Below are positions 1-37,430 of a stretch of DNA of 64,000 nt, piece by piece. The notes under the pieces were generated by a model. The model had not been told where the DNA came from. It made no database searches and saw only the letters and a list, made by a program, of their open reading frames with translations. How positions within the stretch are numbered: the stretch's first letter is position 1; each line of letters starts with the position of its first letter. This DNA comes from Candidatus Faeciplasma pullistercoris (GTDB lineage Bacteria; Bacillota; Clostridia; Oscillospirales; Ruminococcaceae): positions 47,088-111,087 of the forward strand of contig DVLL01000020.1 of NCBI GenBank assembly GCA_018715525.1, given 5' to 3'. The position numbers and the translations under genes were made by a program.

Positions 1-110
1 AAGCCGCGTTAAGGCAAAAAAGCGATAAATCGGAGTGGAACCGCAGCTTACGCCGCCTCCCTGAGCAAAGCACCGTCGGTGCTGCCCGGAGAGCGGCTTT
101 TTATTTTAGA
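1..110 (+). promoter_or_regulatory. 3' part of a T-box leader (antiterminator plus terminator) upstream of cysE-cysS; the specifier region is outside the window
   Basis: T-box-like motif GGAGTGGAACCGCAG at 32-46, then GC-rich hairpin GCCGCcTCC...GGAgaGCGGC with a T-run (52-107) just before cysE. Confidence 0.8.
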
Positions 111-28830: not shown

Positions 28831-30114
28831 TCAGACCGACTCAAGCGCCTGTCTGATATCGTCTATGAGGTCCTCGGCGCTCTCGATTCCGCAGGAAAGC
28901 CTTACAAGATCAGGCGATACTCCGGCAGCCTTGAGCTCCTCGTCGTTCATCTGTCTGTGCGTTGCGCTCGCAGGGTGGAGGCAGCAGGTCCTTGCGTCCG
29001 CTACATGCGTCTCGATGGCGCAGAGCTTAAGATGCTTCATGAAGTTTTCCGCAGCCTTTCTTCCGCCCTTTACTCCGAAGCTTACAACTCCGCAGGAGCC
29101 GTTAGGCAGGTACTTTTTGCAAAGCTCGTGGTCTATGTTGCCCTCAAGGTCGGGATAGAACACCCAGCTTATCTTGTCGCTCGACTCAAGGAACTTCGCT
29201 ACAGCCATGGCGTTCTCACAGTGGCGCGCCATTCTCACATGCAGGCTCTCAAGCCCGAGGTTGAGTAAATACGCGCTCTGGGGAGAGGGCGTGCAGCCGA
29301 AATCTCTCATGAGCTGAGCGGTCGCCTTGGTGATATAAGCGCCCGCCTGACCGAAGCGCTCGGCGTAGGTGATGCCGTGATAGCTCTCATCAGGGGTAGT
29401 AAGACCTGGGAACTTGTCGGCGTGAGCCATCCAGTCAAATTTTCCGGAATCGACTATGCAGCCGCCGACAGCGGAGCCGTGACCGTCCATATACTTGGTT
29501 GTGGAATGGGTGACTATATCCGCTCCCCACTCGAAGGGACGGCAGTTTACCGGCGTAGCAAAGGTGTTGTCTACGATAAGCGGAACCCCATGCCTGTGAG
29601 CCGCAGCGGCAAAGCGCTCTATATCAAGCACTCTGAGAGCGGGGTTTGCAATCGTTTCGCCGAAAACAGCCTTTGTGTTCGGCTTAAACGCCGCATCGAG
29701 CTCCTCGTCGGAGCAGTCGGGAGAGACAAAGGTAAAATCTATTCCCATCTTCTTCATTGTAACGGCGAAAAGATTGAAGGTTCCGCCGTAAATAGAGGAC
29801 TCCGCCACGACGTGGTCGCCCTCGTTGGCTATGTTGAACACCGCAAAGAAGTTTGCCGCCTGTCCGGAGGAGGTGAGCATCGCAGCCGTTCCGCCCTCAA
29901 GCTCGCAGATCTTTCTTGCGACCATGTCGCAGGTGGGGTTCTGGAGCCTTGAATAGAAGTAGCCCTCGGCCTCAAGGTCGAAAAGCTTGCCCATATCCTC
30001 GCTGGTAGCGTACTTAAAGGTAGTAGACTGGATAATAGGTATCTGTCTCGGCTCGCCGTTGCCGGGAGTATAGCCTCCCTGTACGCACTTTGTTTCAATT
30101 CTCTGATTGCTCAT
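28831..30114 (-). CDS. O-acetylhomoserine sulfhydrylase (aminocarboxypropyltransferase)
   Basis: IETKCVQGGYTPGNGEPRQIPIIQSTTFKY; HSTTKYMDGHGSAVGG. Confidence 0.95.
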   Translation of the reverse strand: MSNQRIETKCVQGGYTPGNGEPRQIPIIQSTTFKYATSEDMGKLFDLEAEGYFYSRLQNPTCDMVARKICELEGGTAAMLTSSGQAANFFAVFNIANEGDHVVAESSIYGGTFNLFAVTMKKMGIDFTFVSPDCSDEELDAAFKPNTKAVFGETIANPALRVLDIERFAAAAHRHGVPLIVDNTFATPVNCRPFEWGADIVTHSTTKYMDGHGSAVGGCIVDSGKFDWMAHADKFPGLTTPDESYHGITYAERFGQAGAYITKATAQLMRDFGCTPSPQSAYLLNLGLESLHVRMARHCENAMAVAKFLESSDKISWVFYPDLEGNIDHELCKKYLPNGSCGVVSFGVKGGRKAAENFMKHLKLCAIETHVADARTCCLHPASATHRQMNDEELKAAGVSPDLVRLSCGIESAEDLIDDIRQALESV

Positions 30115-30140
30115 ATCTATAAGCCTTTCGTATAGTTTTA

Positions 30141-31208
30141 TCAGACGGTCTGTCTCCAGCCTCTTGTGTCGGGACGCTTGCCCCACTGTATTCCGGTAAG
30201 CTCGTCGTAAAGCTTCTGGGTGAGCTCGCCTATCTTGCCTCCGCCTATCTCGAACACCTCGTCCTTATAGCGGAGCTTTCCGACAGGAGATACAACCGCG
30301 GCGGTTCCCGTTCCGAACACCTCTTCAAGCGTTCCGTTATGTGCGGCTTCGATAAGCTCGTCAACAGAAATCTTTCTCTCCTCGACTTCATAGCCCCAGT
30401 CGCGGCAGAGGGTCAGAACGGAATCTCTTGTGATTCCGGGGAGTATTGAGCCGTTGAGCATAGGTGTGACAACCTTGCCCGCAATCTTGAAGACGATATT
30501 CATCGCGCCGACTTCCTCTATGTACTTTCTCTCGACTCCGTCAAGCCACAGAACCTGAGAATAGCCGTCGTCGTGCGCCTTTACCTGAGCAGCTAAGGAT
30601 GCGGCATAGTTTCCGCCCGTCTTGGCAAAGCCTATTCCGCCTCTTACCGCTCTTACATAGTCGTCCTCTATCCAAATGCCTACGGGAGCGAGCCCGCTCT
30701 CATAGTAGGCTCCGGAGGGAGAAAGTATGACCATGAAGAGGTAGCTCTTTGAGGGAGCGACTCCAAGATGGTCGTCGGTAGAGATGACAAAGGGTCTTAT
30801 ATAGAGCGAGGTTCCCGGCTCATCGGGTATCCAGTCGCGGTCTATGTCGACTACAGCCTTGACAGCCTGCACAAAGTCCTCCTCGGGAATGCTCGGAATG
30901 CAGAGCCTCTTATTTGAGTTGTTGGCGCGCTTCGCGTTCATGTCAGGTCTGAACAGATACACCTCGCCGTTGTCGCCCTTATATGCCTTTAAGCCCTCGA
31001 ACATGGTCTGTCCGTAGTGGAACACCATTGCCGCAGGTGAAAGGGTGATATTATGGAAGGGTTCAATCCTTGCATCGTGCCAGCCCTGACCCTCGTCATA
31101 GTTCATTATGAACATGTGGTCGGTGAAAATATGTCCGAAGCCGAGCTTTTCACCCTTCGCAGGCTTTTTCTTTGGGTTCTGGGTCTTTTCTACTCTGATG
31201 TTAAGCAT
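30141..31208 (-). CDS. ilvE: branched-chain amino acid aminotransferase
   Basis: HYGQTMFEGLKAYKGDNGEVYLFRPDMNAKRANNSNKRLCIP; KTGGNYAASLAAQ. Confidence 0.96.
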   Translation of the reverse strand: MLNIRVEKTQNPKKKPAKGEKLGFGHIFTDHMFIMNYDEGQGWHDARIEPFHNITLSPAAMVFHYGQTMFEGLKAYKGDNGEVYLFRPDMNAKRANNSNKRLCIPSIPEEDFVQAVKAVVDIDRDWIPDEPGTSLYIRPFVISTDDHLGVAPSKSYLFMVILSPSGAYYESGLAPVGIWIEDDYVRAVRGGIGFAKTGGNYAASLAAQVKAHDDGYSQVLWLDGVERKYIEEVGAMNIVFKIAGKVVTPMLNGSILPGITRDSVLTLCRDWGYEVEERKISVDELIEAAHNGTLEEVFGTGTAAVVSPVGKLRYKDEVFEIGGGKIGELTQKLYDELTGIQWGKRPDTRGWRQTV

Positions 31209-31226: not shown

Positions 31227-31763
31227 TTATTTATAGTTATATCCGGTCTCAAGTGCCTTGAGATTATAAGCAAGCATATCGGCGTGCTTGGCGGAAACTA
31301 CCTTTTCAAGCGCGCTCTTTATGTCGTCAAAGCTGACGACCCCCGTCTCCCTTATCATCTTGCCCATCATTATCATGTTGGCAAGCGTGGGTATTCCCTC
31401 GTCCGCGGCAAGCTTTGTTGCGGGAATGTAGTACGCCTTGACGTCCTCGCGAGTAACCTTCCTGTCAATAAGGGTTGAATCGACAAATATCGACGCTCCC
31501 GGGACGGCGGCGTTCTCGTACTTATCGAGCGACGGCAGGTTCATGACCGCGAGTATGTCCGGATTGGATACTATCGGAGAGCCGACCGGCGTGTCCGAGA
31601 CTATTACCGAGCAGTTGGCGGTTCCGCCTCTCATCTCCGGACCGTATGAGGGGAGCCAGCTTATCTCCTTGCCCTCAAGAAGTCCCTTATACGCCAAAAA
31701 CTTTCCGGCAAACAGTATTCCCTGTCCTCCGAACCCGGCTATGAGAATCTGAGTATAAGCCAT
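31227..31763 (-). CDS. 2-oxoacid:ferredoxin oxidoreductase gamma subunit
   Basis: ILIAGFGGQGILFAGKFLAYKGLLEGKEISWLPSYGPEMRGGTANCSVIVSD. Confidence 0.93.
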   Translation of the reverse strand: MAYTQILIAGFGGQGILFAGKFLAYKGLLEGKEISWLPSYGPEMRGGTANCSVIVSDTPVGSPIVSNPDILAVMNLPSLDKYENAAVPGASIFVDSTLIDRKVTREDVKAYYIPATKLAADEGIPTLANMIMMGKMIRETGVVSFDDIKSALEKVVSAKHADMLAYNLKALETGYNYK

Positions 31764-31764
31764 G

Positions 31765-32517
31765 TCACTTGCCCTCCTTGTTCGCCGATCTGTCCTTATA
31801 AACGCCGAGCGGATAATAGGGGATCATGTTCGTGTCTATCCATTCAAGCGCCTTTGAGGGCGTCATTCCCCAGTTCGTAGGGCAGGAGGAGATGACCTCG
31901 ACAAGCGAGAAGCCCTTGCCGTTTATCTGGTTCTCAAACGCCTTTTTGATCGCCTTTTTGGCGCTCATGACGTTCTTGACGTTGTTGACCGCGACCCTCT
32001 CGATATATTCCGGTCCGTCAAGAGAGGACAAAAGCTCGCAAACCTTTATGGGATACCCCACGGTGTTCACATCTCTGCCGTAGGGCGAGGTCTGGGTGAC
32101 CTGTCCGGGGAGAGAGGTAGGCGCCATCTGTCCGCCGGTCATTCCGTAGATCGCGTTGTTTATGAATATAACCGTAATATTTTCATTTCTTGTCGCCGCG
32201 TGAACCGTCTCAGCCATACCTATAGAGGCGAGGTCTCCGTCTCCCTGATAGGTAAAGATGATGTTATTGGGCATCGCCCTCTTGAGTCCGGTCGCAACTG
32301 CGGGCGCTCTGCCGTGAGCCGCCTCCACCATGTCGCAGGAGAAGTAGTTGTACGCCATGACCGCACAGCCTACCGGAGCTACTCCGACTGTATCGCCGAG
32401 TATTCCGAGCTCGTCTATAGCCTGAGCCACAAGACGGTGAACTATGCCGTGAGTACAGCCGGGGCAGTAGTGAAGAGGCGCGTCTGTAAGAGCCTTCGGC
32501 TTTTCAAATACTACCAT
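31765..32517 (-). CDS. 2-oxoacid:ferredoxin oxidoreductase beta subunit (TPP-binding)
   Basis: HYCPGCTHGIVHRLV; GDGDLASIGMAETVHAATRNENITVIFINNAIYGMTGGQ. Confidence 0.94.
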   Translation of the reverse strand: MVVFEKPKALTDAPLHYCPGCTHGIVHRLVAQAIDELGILGDTVGVAPVGCAVMAYNYFSCDMVEAAHGRAPAVATGLKRAMPNNIIFTYQGDGDLASIGMAETVHAATRNENITVIFINNAIYGMTGGQMAPTSLPGQVTQTSPYGRDVNTVGYPIKVCELLSSLDGPEYIERVAVNNVKNVMSAKKAIKKAFENQINGKGFSLVEVISSCPTNWGMTPSKALEWIDTNMIPYYPLGVYKDRSANKEGK

Positions 32518-33578
32518 CAGTTGTTCCCTCCTATCAATTCATCAAGTGTTTTAAGTATCTCTTCCGGAGCGGGTATCATTCCGCCAACTCTCGAGCAAAG
32601 GGCAACCGGTCTTAAGCATTCCTCGGCAAGCTTGATATCCTCTATCATCTGTCCCATAGAAAGCTCCACCGAGACAAACGCTTTGACCTTCTCGGCAGCA
32701 GCCGCTATAGCCTTCTTCGGGAATGGCCACAGGGTGATAGGTCTTATCATTCCGACCTTGACGCCCTTTGCACGCGCCGCGGTTATCGCGTTCTTTGCGA
32801 CTCTCGCCGCTATTCCGAAGGCGACGATGCAGTACTCGGCGTCCTCCATCATGTACTCCTCATACATGACCTCGTTCTCCTCTACCAGCTTGTAGCGCTC
32901 AAATCTCTCGAGGTTCTTTCTTTCCAGCTCCTCGGGGACGAGGTAGAGCGAGTTTACTATGTTGTGCTCCCTGACGCCCTTGGTACCGGTCACAGCCCAG
33001 GGCTTGTTCGGCTTATACTCTACAGGCTCGGGCAGAACCACCGGCTCCATCATCTGTCCCATTGTTCCGTCCGCAAGTATCATCGCGGGTATGAGATACT
33101 TGTCTGAAAGATCAAACGCCTTTGCGGTCAGGTCAGCCATTTCCTGAACCGACGCGGGGGCTATTACTATAAGATGATAGTCTCCGTGTCCGCCGCCCTT
33201 TGTAGCCTGGAAGTAATCCGACTGCGAGGGCTGTATGCCGCCGAGTCCGGGGCCTCCTCTTTGCACATTGAGTATCAGCGCGGGAAGGTCTGAGCCGGCA
33301 AGATAGGATATGCCCTCCTGCTTGAGCGAAACTCCCGGGCTTGACGATGAGGTCATCGCCCTGAGTCCTGCGCTCGCAACTCCGTAGATCATGTTTATAG
33401 CGGCTATTTCGCTCTCAGCCTGCAAGAACGTTCCGCCTATTTTAGGCATCCTCTTCGCCATGTAGGCGGCAACCTCGGTCTGAGGAGTGATCGGGTATCC
33501 GAAATAGTGGCGGCAGCCTGCTCTTATCGCCGCCTCGGCAATAGCCTCGTTGCCCTTCATTAGTACCTTTTCTGACAT
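32517..33578 (-). CDS. 2-oxoacid:ferredoxin oxidoreductase alpha subunit (VorB/KorA-like)
   Basis: KGNEAIAEAAIRAGCRHYFGYPITPQTEVAAYMAKRMPKIGGTFLQAESEIAAINM. Confidence 0.94.
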   Translation of the reverse strand: MSEKVLMKGNEAIAEAAIRAGCRHYFGYPITPQTEVAAYMAKRMPKIGGTFLQAESEIAAINMIYGVASAGLRAMTSSSSPGVSLKQEGISYLAGSDLPALILNVQRGGPGLGGIQPSQSDYFQATKGGGHGDYHLIVIAPASVQEMADLTAKAFDLSDKYLIPAMILADGTMGQMMEPVVLPEPVEYKPNKPWAVTGTKGVREHNIVNSLYLVPEELERKNLERFERYKLVEENEVMYEEYMMEDAEYCIVAFGIAARVAKNAITAARAKGVKVGMIRPITLWPFPKKAIAAAAEKVKAFVSVELSMGQMIEDIKLAEECLRPVALCSRVGGMIPAPEEILKTLDELIGGNN

Positions 33579-33601: not shown

Positions 33602-33808
33602 CTATTTTTCAACCGTAATGACGCAGTCGGGGCACATTGCAGCGCAGAAGGCGCAGCCTATGCACTTTGACTGATCGGTCATCTGAGCGGGATAGTGACC
33701 CTTTTTGTTGATCTTGTCCTTGGCGAGAACGAGTATTTTCTTGGGGCATGCCTCAACGCAAAGTCCGCAGCCCTTGCAGACGTCCTCCTTGAATGTTACC
33801 TTTGGCAT
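33602..33808 (-). CDS. 2x[4Fe-4S] ferredoxin-like delta subunit
   Basis: CKGCGLCVEACPKK and CIGCAFCAAMCPD motifs. Confidence 0.94.
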   Translation of the reverse strand: MPKVTFKEDVCKGCGLCVEACPKKILVLAKDKINKKGHYPAQMTDQSKCIGCAFCAAMCPDCVITVEK

Positions 33809-33829: not shown

Positions 33830-34501
33830 TCAATTTATATCAAAATATCTCTTCTGAAGCGTCATCGGGAAGACGTCCGGCAGCTTCAAATACCTTGCCA
33901 CCCTGTCCTCCGCGCTTGTAAACAGTACCGGAAGCCCGGAAAGCTCGGACAGCCTGCGCGCCTCATGGACGCTTTCAAGCACCGTCTCAACGGTTGTTTC
34001 CCGCCCTAAGTTCGTGTTGTTTACAATGGCGGTAAAGCCTATTCCTCCCGCCGTCTCTATCTCCCGCATCACCTCGAGCGCCTCCTCGGCTCTTCTTGTC
34101 AGCGGGCGGCAGAAGTTTGCGACAAAAACCATCTCGTAGTCGTTTTCCTCAAGTATATACGGAGCGAAGCGCCCTAAAGCATACGCTCCCCTGTCGTCTC
34201 CGCCTATATCGAGAACGGCGTACCTCAAGCGGTTCTCCACAGCTCCGTAAAGCTCGGAGGGAAGCGCCGGAAGGTCAACATTAGAATTGGCAAATTCCGA
34301 GGATATTATCTGTATCCCCTCGCTCTCGAGCAGCTCGGTGCTGTCCTTAGTGCGAAAATACGGGTTGACTATATCGAGGTCGGCTATGACCACCTGCTTG
34401 CCGCCGGCTCTGAGCATCTGCGCGTAGTTTACCGCTATATTCGTCTTGCCGCTCCCGTAATGTCCGGCAAAAAGCGTTACTCTTCTTATTCTCGTATCCA
34501 T
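33830..34501 (-). CDS. MinD/ArsA/CobQ-like P-loop ATPase
   Basis: FAGHYGSGKTNIAVNYAQ Walker A; VVIADLDIVNPYFRTKD. Confidence 0.85.
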   Translation of the reverse strand: MDTRIRRVTLFAGHYGSGKTNIAVNYAQMLRAGGKQVVIADLDIVNPYFRTKDSTELLESEGIQIISSEFANSNVDLPALPSELYGAVENRLRYAVLDIGGDDRGAYALGRFAPYILEENDYEMVFVANFCRPLTRRAEEALEVMREIETAGGIGFTAIVNNTNLGRETTVETVLESVHEARRLSELSGLPVLFTSAEDRVARYLKLPDVFPMTLQKRYFDIN

Positions 34502-34798: not shown

Positions 34799-37066
34799 TC
34801 AAAGGGCGTTTCTTCTTATCTTGCCGCTGATGGTCTTGGGCAGCTCGTCCTTGAATTCGATTATTCTGGGATACTTGTAGGGGGCGGTGTGATTCTTGAC
34901 ATAGTTCTGGATCTCCTTCTTGAGCTCCTCGCTCGGAACCGTACCCTTTGTCAGAACTATGCTCGCCTTGACGACCTGACCTCTTACCTCGTCAGGAACG
35001 CCGGAAACTCCGCACTCAAGCACATAAGGCAGCTCCATGAGAACGCTCTCGATCTCGAAGGGACCGATGCGGTAACCGGAGGATTTGATAACGTCGTCGA
35101 TCCTCGATACATAGTAGAAATAGCCGTCCTCGTCGCGCCATGCCGTATCGCAGGTGTGATACAGTCCGTCGTGCCATACATCGTCAGTCTTTTCCTGATC
35201 CCTGTAGTAGCCCTTGAAGAGTCCGCAGGGGTTGCCCTTGTCGGTGCGGATAACTATCTCGCCGACCTCGCCGGGTCCGCAGGGGTTGCCGTCCGGGTCT
35301 ACTATATCGACGTCATACTGAGGCGTGGGCTTGCCCATAGAGCCGAGCTTTGGCGTCATTCCGCAGAGATTCGCCATGATGAGGGTGGTCTCGGTCTGGC
35401 CGAAGCCCTCCATTATCTCAAGACCGGTGGCTTCCTTGAATCTCTTGGATACCTCGGGGTTAAGAGCCTCGCCCGCCGTGGTCATGTGCTTTATTGATGA
35501 GAGGTCGTACTTCGAGATGTCCTCCTTGATGAGCATTCTGAGCATTGTCGGAGGAGCGCAGAAGGTGGTTATCTGGTACTTGGCGAAGAGCGGAAGGATG
35601 TCGTGGGCGTCAAACTTGTCGAAGTCATAGACAAACACCGCACCCTCGCAGAGCCACTGCCCGTAGAGCTTGCCCCAGAGCGACTTGCCCCAGCCGGTAT
35701 CCGAGATTGTCAGGTGGAGTCCGTCACGCTCGCAGCAGTGCCAATATCTGGCGGTCACATAGTGACCGAGAGCGTAGGTGTGAGCGTGCTGAGCCATCTT
35801 GGGGTTGCCGGTGGTTCCAGATGTGAAGAACATCAGAGCCGGCTCGCTGCCTGCCGGGCAGTCGTCAGGACGGTCAAACTTCTCGCTGTAAAGCTGGTAT
35901 TCGCTGTTGAGGCTTCTCCAGCCTTCCCTCTCTCCGTTGACCATGATGAGATGCTTAACGCTCGGGCACTGCTTAGCCGCTGCCTCCGCGATCTCGGCGG
36001 TATCGCCGTCGGCGGTGCAGACAAGAGCGGAAACTCCGGCGGAGTTGAATCTGTATACAAAATCATGCTCCTTGAGCTGATTGGTGGCGGGGATAGCGAT
36101 AGCGCCCAGCTTGTGGAGCGCAACCATGCAGAACCAGAACTGATAATGCCTCTTGAGAACAAGCATTACCTTGTCTCCTCTGCCGATACCGAGAGACTTG
36201 AAGTAGTTTGCGACCTGATTTGACGCGCGCTTTATGTCCCTGAAGGTAAATCTGCGCTCGTTGTGATGCTTATCTACATGAAGCATCGCGAGCTTATCCG
36301 GGTACTTGTCTGCTATCGCGTCTACAATGTCAAAGCCGAAGTTGAAGCTCTCGGTGTTCTTGAAGTGGATGCCCTTGAGCGCGCCGTACTCGTCCTCCAC
36401 GGTGTCGATAAACCTCTGGCAGATGAGCTGCTCGGACTTTCCCGCCTGGATCACCTTCTCGCGAATCTCTTCTTCCTTTTCCTCTTCTCCGGGAAGAACC
36501 ACCGCTAAGAACACGCAGTCCTTGCCGTCTACTGCGATCATGCCGTGAGGAGTGGAGGAATTGTAGTAGATGCTGTCTCCCTCGTGGAGAACCTCGACAT
36601 GCTTTCCTACCTGAACCTTCAGGCTTCCGCTTATGATAAGGTCGAATTCCTGACCGTTATGCGTAGTCAGATTGATAGGCTGGTGCTGCTGGGCGGCGGA
36701 ATACTCGTACTTTACCCAGTAGGGCTCGGCGATCTTGCCCTTGAACATAGGCGCAAGGTTGGAGATGTCTATACCGGGCTCCTTCGCAGTCTTCTGACCC
36801 TGTCCCTTCCTTGTCACCGTGTAGGACGTCAGCCTCTCGGCGTTGTGTCCTTCGATAAGGTCCGTAAGGTCAATGTCGAAGGCAAGCGCGCACTTGTGTA
36901 TAAACGTAAACGGAAGATCCTCCTCGGCAGCCTCGTACCTGAGGTATTCTTCCTCGGTCACCTCCGTCTTCTCGGCCATCTCGGCGGCGGTCCAGCCCAT
37001 GATATCCCTCATGCCCCTGATACGAGCGGCGATATCCATAAGTCTTGTCTGAGAATTTGTCGGCAT
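34799..37066 (-). CDS. fused XRE-HTH + cupin + AMP-dependent acyl-CoA synthetase
   Basis: N-terminal HTH IRGMRDIMGWTAAEMAEKTEVTEEEY; cupin HNGQEFDLIISGSLKVQVGKHVEVLHEGDSIYYNSSTPHGM; AMP-binding FFTSGTTGNPKMAQH, GEIVIRTDKGN, PKTISGKIRRNAL. Confidence 0.93.
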   Translation of the reverse strand: MPTNSQTRLMDIAARIRGMRDIMGWTAAEMAEKTEVTEEEYLRYEAAEEDLPFTFIHKCALAFDIDLTDLIEGHNAERLTSYTVTRKGQGQKTAKEPGIDISNLAPMFKGKIAEPYWVKYEYSAAQQHQPINLTTHNGQEFDLIISGSLKVQVGKHVEVLHEGDSIYYNSSTPHGMIAVDGKDCVFLAVVLPGEEEKEEEIREKVIQAGKSEQLICQRFIDTVEDEYGALKGIHFKNTESFNFGFDIVDAIADKYPDKLAMLHVDKHHNERRFTFRDIKRASNQVANYFKSLGIGRGDKVMLVLKRHYQFWFCMVALHKLGAIAIPATNQLKEHDFVYRFNSAGVSALVCTADGDTAEIAEAAAKQCPSVKHLIMVNGEREGWRSLNSEYQLYSEKFDRPDDCPAGSEPALMFFTSGTTGNPKMAQHAHTYALGHYVTARYWHCCERDGLHLTISDTGWGKSLWGKLYGQWLCEGAVFVYDFDKFDAHDILPLFAKYQITTFCAPPTMLRMLIKEDISKYDLSSIKHMTTAGEALNPEVSKRFKEATGLEIMEGFGQTETTLIMANLCGMTPKLGSMGKPTPQYDVDIVDPDGNPCGPGEVGEIVIRTDKGNPCGLFKGYYRDQEKTDDVWHDGLYHTCDTAWRDEDGYFYYVSRIDDVIKSSGYRIGPFEIESVLMELPYVLECGVSGVPDEVRGQVVKASIVLTKGTVPSEELKKEIQNYVKNHTAPYKYPRIIEFKDELPKTISGKIRRNAL

Positions 37067-37104: not shown

Positions 37105-37400
37105 TTGAGACGCAAAAAAGCCCGTCTCAAATTTCTTTGAGACGAGCAGCAAATACTGATATCATTGCTTTTGCCCGCGGTACCACTCAAATTGCGCTTA
37201 AACAAGCGCCACTCAGGCTCTGACAAGCCGTATACATTAACGCAGTAGTAACGAAAGACGCCTACCCGCACAATCGCGCTCGGGTCTTCTGCTCGGAAGT
37301 GATGGGATAAGACGCTGCACCTGCCGGCTCACACCACTCCCGGCTCGCTTTAAGCGCATCCTGCGAACTCTCCGTCTTCGTCATCGCATTTATTGCCTCA
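37105..37400 (-). promoter_or_regulatory. T-box leader, candidate Ile (ATC) specifier
   Basis: GAGTGGTACCGCGGGC (37173-37188); stem-I-like ...GCGAGCCGGGAGTGGTGTGAGCCGGCAG...; candidate specifier ATC (37303-37301) followed by ACTTCCGAGC; terminator GCTCGTCTCAAAGAAATTTGAGACGGGCTTTTTT (37114-37147). Confidence 0.93.
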
Positions 37401-37401
37401 T

Positions 37402-37430
37402 ATTTTATCACCTGAATTTTGAGTTGTCAA
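37402..37430 (-). promoter_or_regulatory. sigma-A promoter TTGACA-N17-TAAAAT for the T-box transcript
   Basis: read on the minus strand. Confidence 0.8.

Follow-up and report, generated by a model that had tools for sequence, protein, structure and literature searches.

Class I T-box riboswitches such as those of ileS and ilv-leu leaders present a Stem I specifier, a T-box sequence, an antiterminator and a terminator in a standard order, and TBDB lists AUC as the preferred isoleucine specifier (PMC7778990). The available portions of the main text of two surveys (PMC2494555, PMC3766115) make no mention of acyl-CoA or ferredoxin enzymes as T-box targets. The formation of isoleucine from 2-methylbutyrate by reductive carboxylation is, according to the accessible part of PMC2812497, old knowledge in rumen anaerobes, for which that source cites Robinson & Allison 1969, and it has been proposed there for Methanobrevibacter ruminantium, which has a gap in the usual threonine route; the same part describes no regulation of the pathway. 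Among acyl-CoA ligases, MacsMa of Methanosarcina acetivorans has 2-methylbutyrate as its preferred acyl substrate (PMC10455477), and Staphylococcus aureus MbcS, which serves fatty acid synthesis, is selective for 2-methylbutyrate and isobutyrate (PMC10026030).

Here we analyze a 64,000-nucleotide stretch of the Candidatus Faeciplasma pullistercoris genome (hereafter, the window) in which a leader with the standard class I arrangement precedes, unlike ileS and ilv-leu leaders, an operon that joins an acyl-CoA ligase gene to genes proposed to act in reductive carboxylation. We consider it highly probable that an Ile-tRNA-sensing class I T-box controls by antitermination an operon making isoleucine from 2-methylbutyrate, a proposal made without expression, binding or enzyme data. 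The proposed reactions are identical to those put forward for M. ruminantium in the part of PMC2812497 available, but the corresponding genes of the window are grouped in a single operon, predicted to be controlled by tRNA. T-boxes and the 2-methylbutyrate route are each known; we found no literature joining the two, and earlier mention (e.g. in the Vitreschak 2008 or Gutierrez-Preciado 2009 surveys) is not excluded.

A class I T-box leader upstream of the ligase gene

The leader spans positions 37430-37120 of the minus strand and contains a promoter-like site, an AUC specifier, a T-box, an antiterminator and a terminator, all of them except the antiterminator proposed beforehand in a sequence-only reading of this region. 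The promoter-like TTGACA-N17-TAAAAT predicted in that reading lies at 37402..37430, with a TG ahead of the second hexamer and 11/12 consensus matches in a consensus scan. Its stem-I-like sequence was borne out by the covariance model for class I T-boxes (RF00230), an Infernal-type check, which matched end to end over 37393-37135 (model positions 1-219 of 219, 72.5 bits, E=1e-15), covering Stem I, linker stems and antiterminator, with additional support from covariation. The anticipated isoleucine specifier was recovered in register at 37301..37303, with no unrelated amino acid indicated. It is followed by an A and then by CTTCCGAGC, and the specifier loop is closed by a GAAG/CUUC helix (GAAG/CTTC in the DNA) below the codon.

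The two remaining predicted elements were also located. The T-box sequence UUUGAGUGGUACCGCGGGC (37173..37191) contains GAGTGGTACCGCGGGC at 37188-37173, and its UGGU is able, judging from the sequence and in the absence of binding data, to base-pair with a tRNA's ACCA terminus. The intrinsic terminator (37120..37147) comprises a 12 bp stem followed by U6 (TTTTTT) and overlaps the 3' arm of the antiterminator, which folds with the canonical 7-nt bulge; the two structures share this arm and are therefore mutually exclusive. Downstream of the terminator lies a Shine-Dalgarno-like AAGGAG, followed by the ligase ATG at 37066 on the minus strand.

A scan of the leader at Rfam gathering scores returned no match, because its 72.5 bits fall below the RF00230 gathering score of 93, and the leader was detected in E-value mode. 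The same holds for 8/10 T-boxes of this genome, including the window leader and those of pheST, valS, thrS and alaS. Besides this score, the leader departs from described class I T-boxes in its specifier loop, where the AGUA/GAA loop-E letters are absent both in the sequence and in the Rfam alignment. These letters are common in canonical specifier loops and we do not judge them defining. In the specifier loop of the window (37393-37290) and its relatives, conserved ACGG and CC(C/T) flanks replace them, and pairing of the GG with the CC may yield a compact loop.

Comparison with 46 aligned leaders from relatives revealed double compensatory changes at 20/27 predicted pairs, and the hand-written leader structure outscored 500/500 shuffles and every slid control. 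Compensatory changes are present in the helix under the specifier codon, and valine and leucine codons sit at the same specifier position in sister leaders. The invariance of AUC within this alignment is not evidence in itself, since the 46 sequences were chosen as AUC leaders. The leader meets the criteria for a class I T-box, namely a full-length model match, a Stem I specifier and a UGGN bulge in an antiterminator that competes with a terminator; tRNA binding and tRNA-dependent antitermination are inferred, without bench data.

Operon composition and proposed ligase substrate

The first gene of the operon (34799..37066, minus strand, as are all those that follow) encodes an AMP-forming acyl-CoA ligase of 755 aa belonging to a clade designated here ACS1, with glycine at position 460. 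Pfam matches to AMP-binding, AMP-binding_C, Cupin_2 and, weakly, HTH_19 define a ligase with a fused HTH-like and cupin N-terminus. Among the more distant relatives, a stop frequently splits this match, as if HTH-cupin and ligase were separate adjacent genes there. Next come a CbiA/ParA-like ATPase (33830..34501, 223 aa, profile match), which has no assigned role, and the four subunits of a 3-methyl-2-oxobutanoate:ferredoxin oxidoreductase (VOR). These comprise the ferredoxin-like VorD (33602..33808, 68 aa), identified by its ORF and two 4Fe-4S cysteine motifs; the alpha-type VorB (32517..33578), which exceeds its cut-off (NF005507, 547.8 bits vs 399); the TPP-binding beta-type VorA (31765..32517, PF02775, with a PorB/KorB family match under cut-off); and the gamma-type VorC (31227..31763, PF01558), just under the TIGR02175 cut-off (80.3 vs 81.1). 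They are followed by the branched-chain aminotransferase IlvE (30141..31208; TIGR01123, 407 bits for a cut-off of 250; NF009897, 502.5 bits for a cut-off of 307) and, close behind it, by a MetY-type O-acetylhomoserine sulfhydrylase (28831..30186; TIGR01326, 564 bits for a cut-off of 495) whose true start probably lies within the ORF as listed. The ligase-ATPase-VOR-ilvE set recurs in relatives, and MetY is kept in some only. The ATPase adjoins the VOR genes in nearly all VOR-bearing relatives and might assist the iron-sulphur enzyme.

A 300-nt gap between the ligase and ATPase genes contains a promoter-like TTGACA-N17-TAGAAT (34691-34663, minus strand) and a hairpin (34575-34548); a second riboswitch was sought there and not found, with no Rfam match. 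These elements could represent an independent promoter or the relic of a lost Val-type unit, and the T-box may therefore govern mainly the ligase, with VOR and ilvE possibly read independently. In several relatives the gap holds an unrelated stretch without counterpart in the window.

On the basis of these components, uncharged tRNA-Ile would pair with AUC and UGGU, allowing the antiterminator to form and the operon to be transcribed. The ligase would then convert 2-methylbutyrate to 2-methylbutyryl-CoA, ferredoxin-dependent VOR, working in the carboxylating direction, would yield 3-methyl-2-oxopentanoate, and IlvE would aminate this product to isoleucine. The direction of flux is inferred. 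VOR and IlvE are reversible and used for amino acid fermentation in other anaerobes, which leaves room for a catabolic operon degrading isoleucine to 2-methylbutyrate with ferredoxin reduction. A T-box, however, turns genes on when isoleucine is short, and induction by uncharged tRNA is the wrong signal for catabolism and argues for synthesis; the AMP-forming ligase, moreover, consumes ATP and does not produce any. We regard breakdown as the least credible of the readings considered.

The substrate assigned to the ligase is also inferred. Its best PDB match is MacsMa (3etc, 657 bits, aligned over residues 237-752), which resembles it in the ligase domain, the substrate-site tryptophan and the proposed use of 2-methylbutyrate, but is archaeal and lacks the HTH-cupin part in its solved chain. 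Trp442, which aligns with that tryptophan, is conserved in all members of ACS1 and of a sister clade, ACS2. The best NCBIfam match is MbcS (NF047394), at 439 bits well under the cut-off of 850, and the window ligase is thus not an MbcS equivalog. We propose that it is a 2-methylbutyrate--CoA ligase, an activity inferred from the T-box, the operon and the similarity to 3etc. Since MbcS, the top NCBIfam match, acts in fatty acid synthesis, the ligase might instead supply branched acyl-CoA for membrane fatty acids, with the isoleucine switch merely sensing precursor shortage. The VOR and IlvE genes in the operon, retained in many relatives, speak against such a lipid role, which we deem very improbable.

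Specifier codons, ligase clades and ilvC across relatives

We examined 80 named loci, nearly all of them in metagenome-assembled Clostridia and many from herbivore gut samples, together with 30 from the same family. Many relatives encode a tandem pair of ligases with a separate T-box for each. Specifiers were read by alignment column, without selection on the codon, and ligases with no T-box core or a cut leader, which include more distant, mostly unfused paralogs without T-box, were excluded. The specifier was AUC in 93/93 readable leaders of ACS1, the clade of the window ligase, and a valine codon in 40/40 leaders of ACS2 (38 GUA, two GUC). Automatic calls of Ser, Lys, Glu, Pro or Thr in some relatives proved wrong, reading as Ile or Val by eye or alignment column. 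One further ligase on a long basal branch likewise carries AUC, and on a tree of 158 ligases a single state change suffices to account for the Ile/Val label. A later class-wide draw added 26 ligase loci from other families, each with a T-box core; the specifier was AUC for 12/12 Ile-type and GUA for 14/14 Val-type ligases among them.

In both samples, residue 460, which follows Trp459 in DTGWGK, is glycine in every Ile-type and alanine in every Val-type ligase. We take this residue to occupy the position of Val310 in the acyl pocket of Salmonella Acs; by inference, a bulkier side chain here would suit the smaller isobutyrate.

A Val-type ligase making valine from isobutyrate would render ilvC dispensable. 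Within the 30 family genomes, ilvC is absent in 10/10 with tandem ligases and present in 12/20 others. In an overlapping set of 49 named genomes, of unknown completeness, ilvC was identified in 9/9 with an Ile-type ligase alone joined to VOR (in one case in two pieces), several of which were left out of the search for a second ligase, and in 1/25 with a tandem pair. The remaining 15 have an Ile-type ligase apart from VOR and no ilvC; a predicted Val-type ligase was found elsewhere in these genomes, whole in 12 and as fragments in one, with none in two. The leaders of the 12 whole copies all specify GUA or GUC, three of them read by eye. Overall, ilvC is missing from 37/38 genomes with a Val-type ligase vs 2/11 without (Fisher p 2.6e-7, ignoring shared ancestry). 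This association is left unexplained by lipid supply, and the absence of ilvC alongside Val-type copies also counts against a role in breakdown. The only genome with an Ile/Val tandem that matches ilvC (L088, G346) does so with two partial pieces on different contigs (model positions 36-144 and 1-43), possibly contamination or a broken gene.

Many tandem-ligase genomes also carry a Leu (CUC) T-box ahead of a LeuA-like gene, exemplified by a unit at L046:3482-7704 that encodes a LeuA-like protein (HMGL and LeuA_dimer) and a fusion of a TIM barrel with an AMP ligase. CUC was called in 16/18 leaders before LeuA-like genes (L046 being counted twice, as L155). Where checked (L046 and L078), the gene is followed by the fusion, whose TIM barrel is xylose-isomerase-like, and some of the LeuA-like genes, located downstream of the operon, are only 35-43% identical to that of L046. 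A similar Leu T-box and LeuA-like gene occur at L068, L072, L078, L090, L094, L101 and L103. It is possible that this unit constitutes the leucine arm of the same scheme; its substrate is undetermined, and the use of isovalerate is not established.

Branched-chain amino acid supply in the host genome and its relatives

The genome containing the window is a 1.71 Mb draft, 96% complete. It encodes leuA, leuCDB, ilvB, a small ilvN-like gene, ilvC and ilvD as a single series preceded by a Leu (CUC) T-box, with all genes but leuA and ilvC identified by eye. Models for ilvA and cimA returned nothing above cut-off in this genome; its PALP proteins resemble cysK, a TrpB-like protein and thrC, with none looking like ilvA, and its HMGL proteins are LeuA and an oxaloacetate decarboxylase/pyruvate carboxylase-like protein. 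With leu and ilvBNCD genes present and no ilvA or cimA found, the operon may be the only isoleucine route of this genome. Valine and leucine can be made by the usual route and isoleucine apparently cannot, which fits an isoleucine-only switch on the 2-methylbutyrate route; given a draft that is 96% complete, ilvA could be absent from the assembly only. The sequence-only reading had assigned the ligase to isoleucine or branched-chain supply, without naming a substrate, a pathway or the sister valine and leucine switches, and that assignment is supported by AUC in 93/93 leaders, by VOR and IlvE, and by the failure to find ilvA or cimA. An Ile switch is not invariably accompanied by absence of ilvA: several relatives carry both, and some retain ilvA and ilvC beside the Ile T-box ligase.

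A genome with ilvBNCD and no ilvA or cimA found needs a source of 2-oxobutyrate, and an isoleucine T-box would be equally suitable if the ligase activated propionate, VOR carboxylated propionyl-CoA to 2-oxobutyrate and the ilvBNCD enzymes completed the synthesis of isoleucine. However, 39/49 named genomes with an Ile T-box ligase lack ilvC, so that 2-oxobutyrate has no path to isoleucine there. In addition, 2-methylbutyrate is the preferred acid of the closest characterised ligase, VorB belongs to the branched-chain type, and the valine-linked sister clade has no propionate counterpart. We therefore consider the use of propionate unlikely.

Applied to the T-boxes of this genome, a relaxed specifier caller returned Cys, Leu, Val and Thr for those upstream of cys, leu, valS and thrS genes, but it got the Trp leader wrong, at low scores, and is blind to leaders whose core escapes its pattern. 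The left edge of the window (1-63; G000:C11:46958-47150) cuts a second T-box, with specifier TGC (Cys), that precedes genes including a cysS-like one.

Beyond the window, we think it probable, with less assurance than for the operon itself, that, across the class, each of the paralogous ligases feeding reductive carboxylation is placed under a T-box specific for the amino acid that it helps to supply. An Ile type (AUC, Gly460) would act on 2-methylbutyrate, a Val type (GUA/GUC, Ala460) would act on isobutyrate and replace ilvC, and in some genomes a Leu unit (CUC) would pair a LeuA-like protein with a different acyl ligase. The specifier would then serve as a substrate label and as a genomic marker of dependence on the branched-chain acids of neighbors.

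Branched-chain fatty acids (isoacids) are known to be required by, or beneficial to, some gut anaerobes, and the genes and organisms involved are poorly mapped. In the system described here, the amino acid tied to each ligase, and hence its likely acid substrate, can be read from a regulatory RNA, which provides a directly testable gene set in which the sister enzymes of ACS1 and ACS2 may differ in substrate via one active-site residue, and the T-box-ligase pairing offers a marker for cross-feeding.
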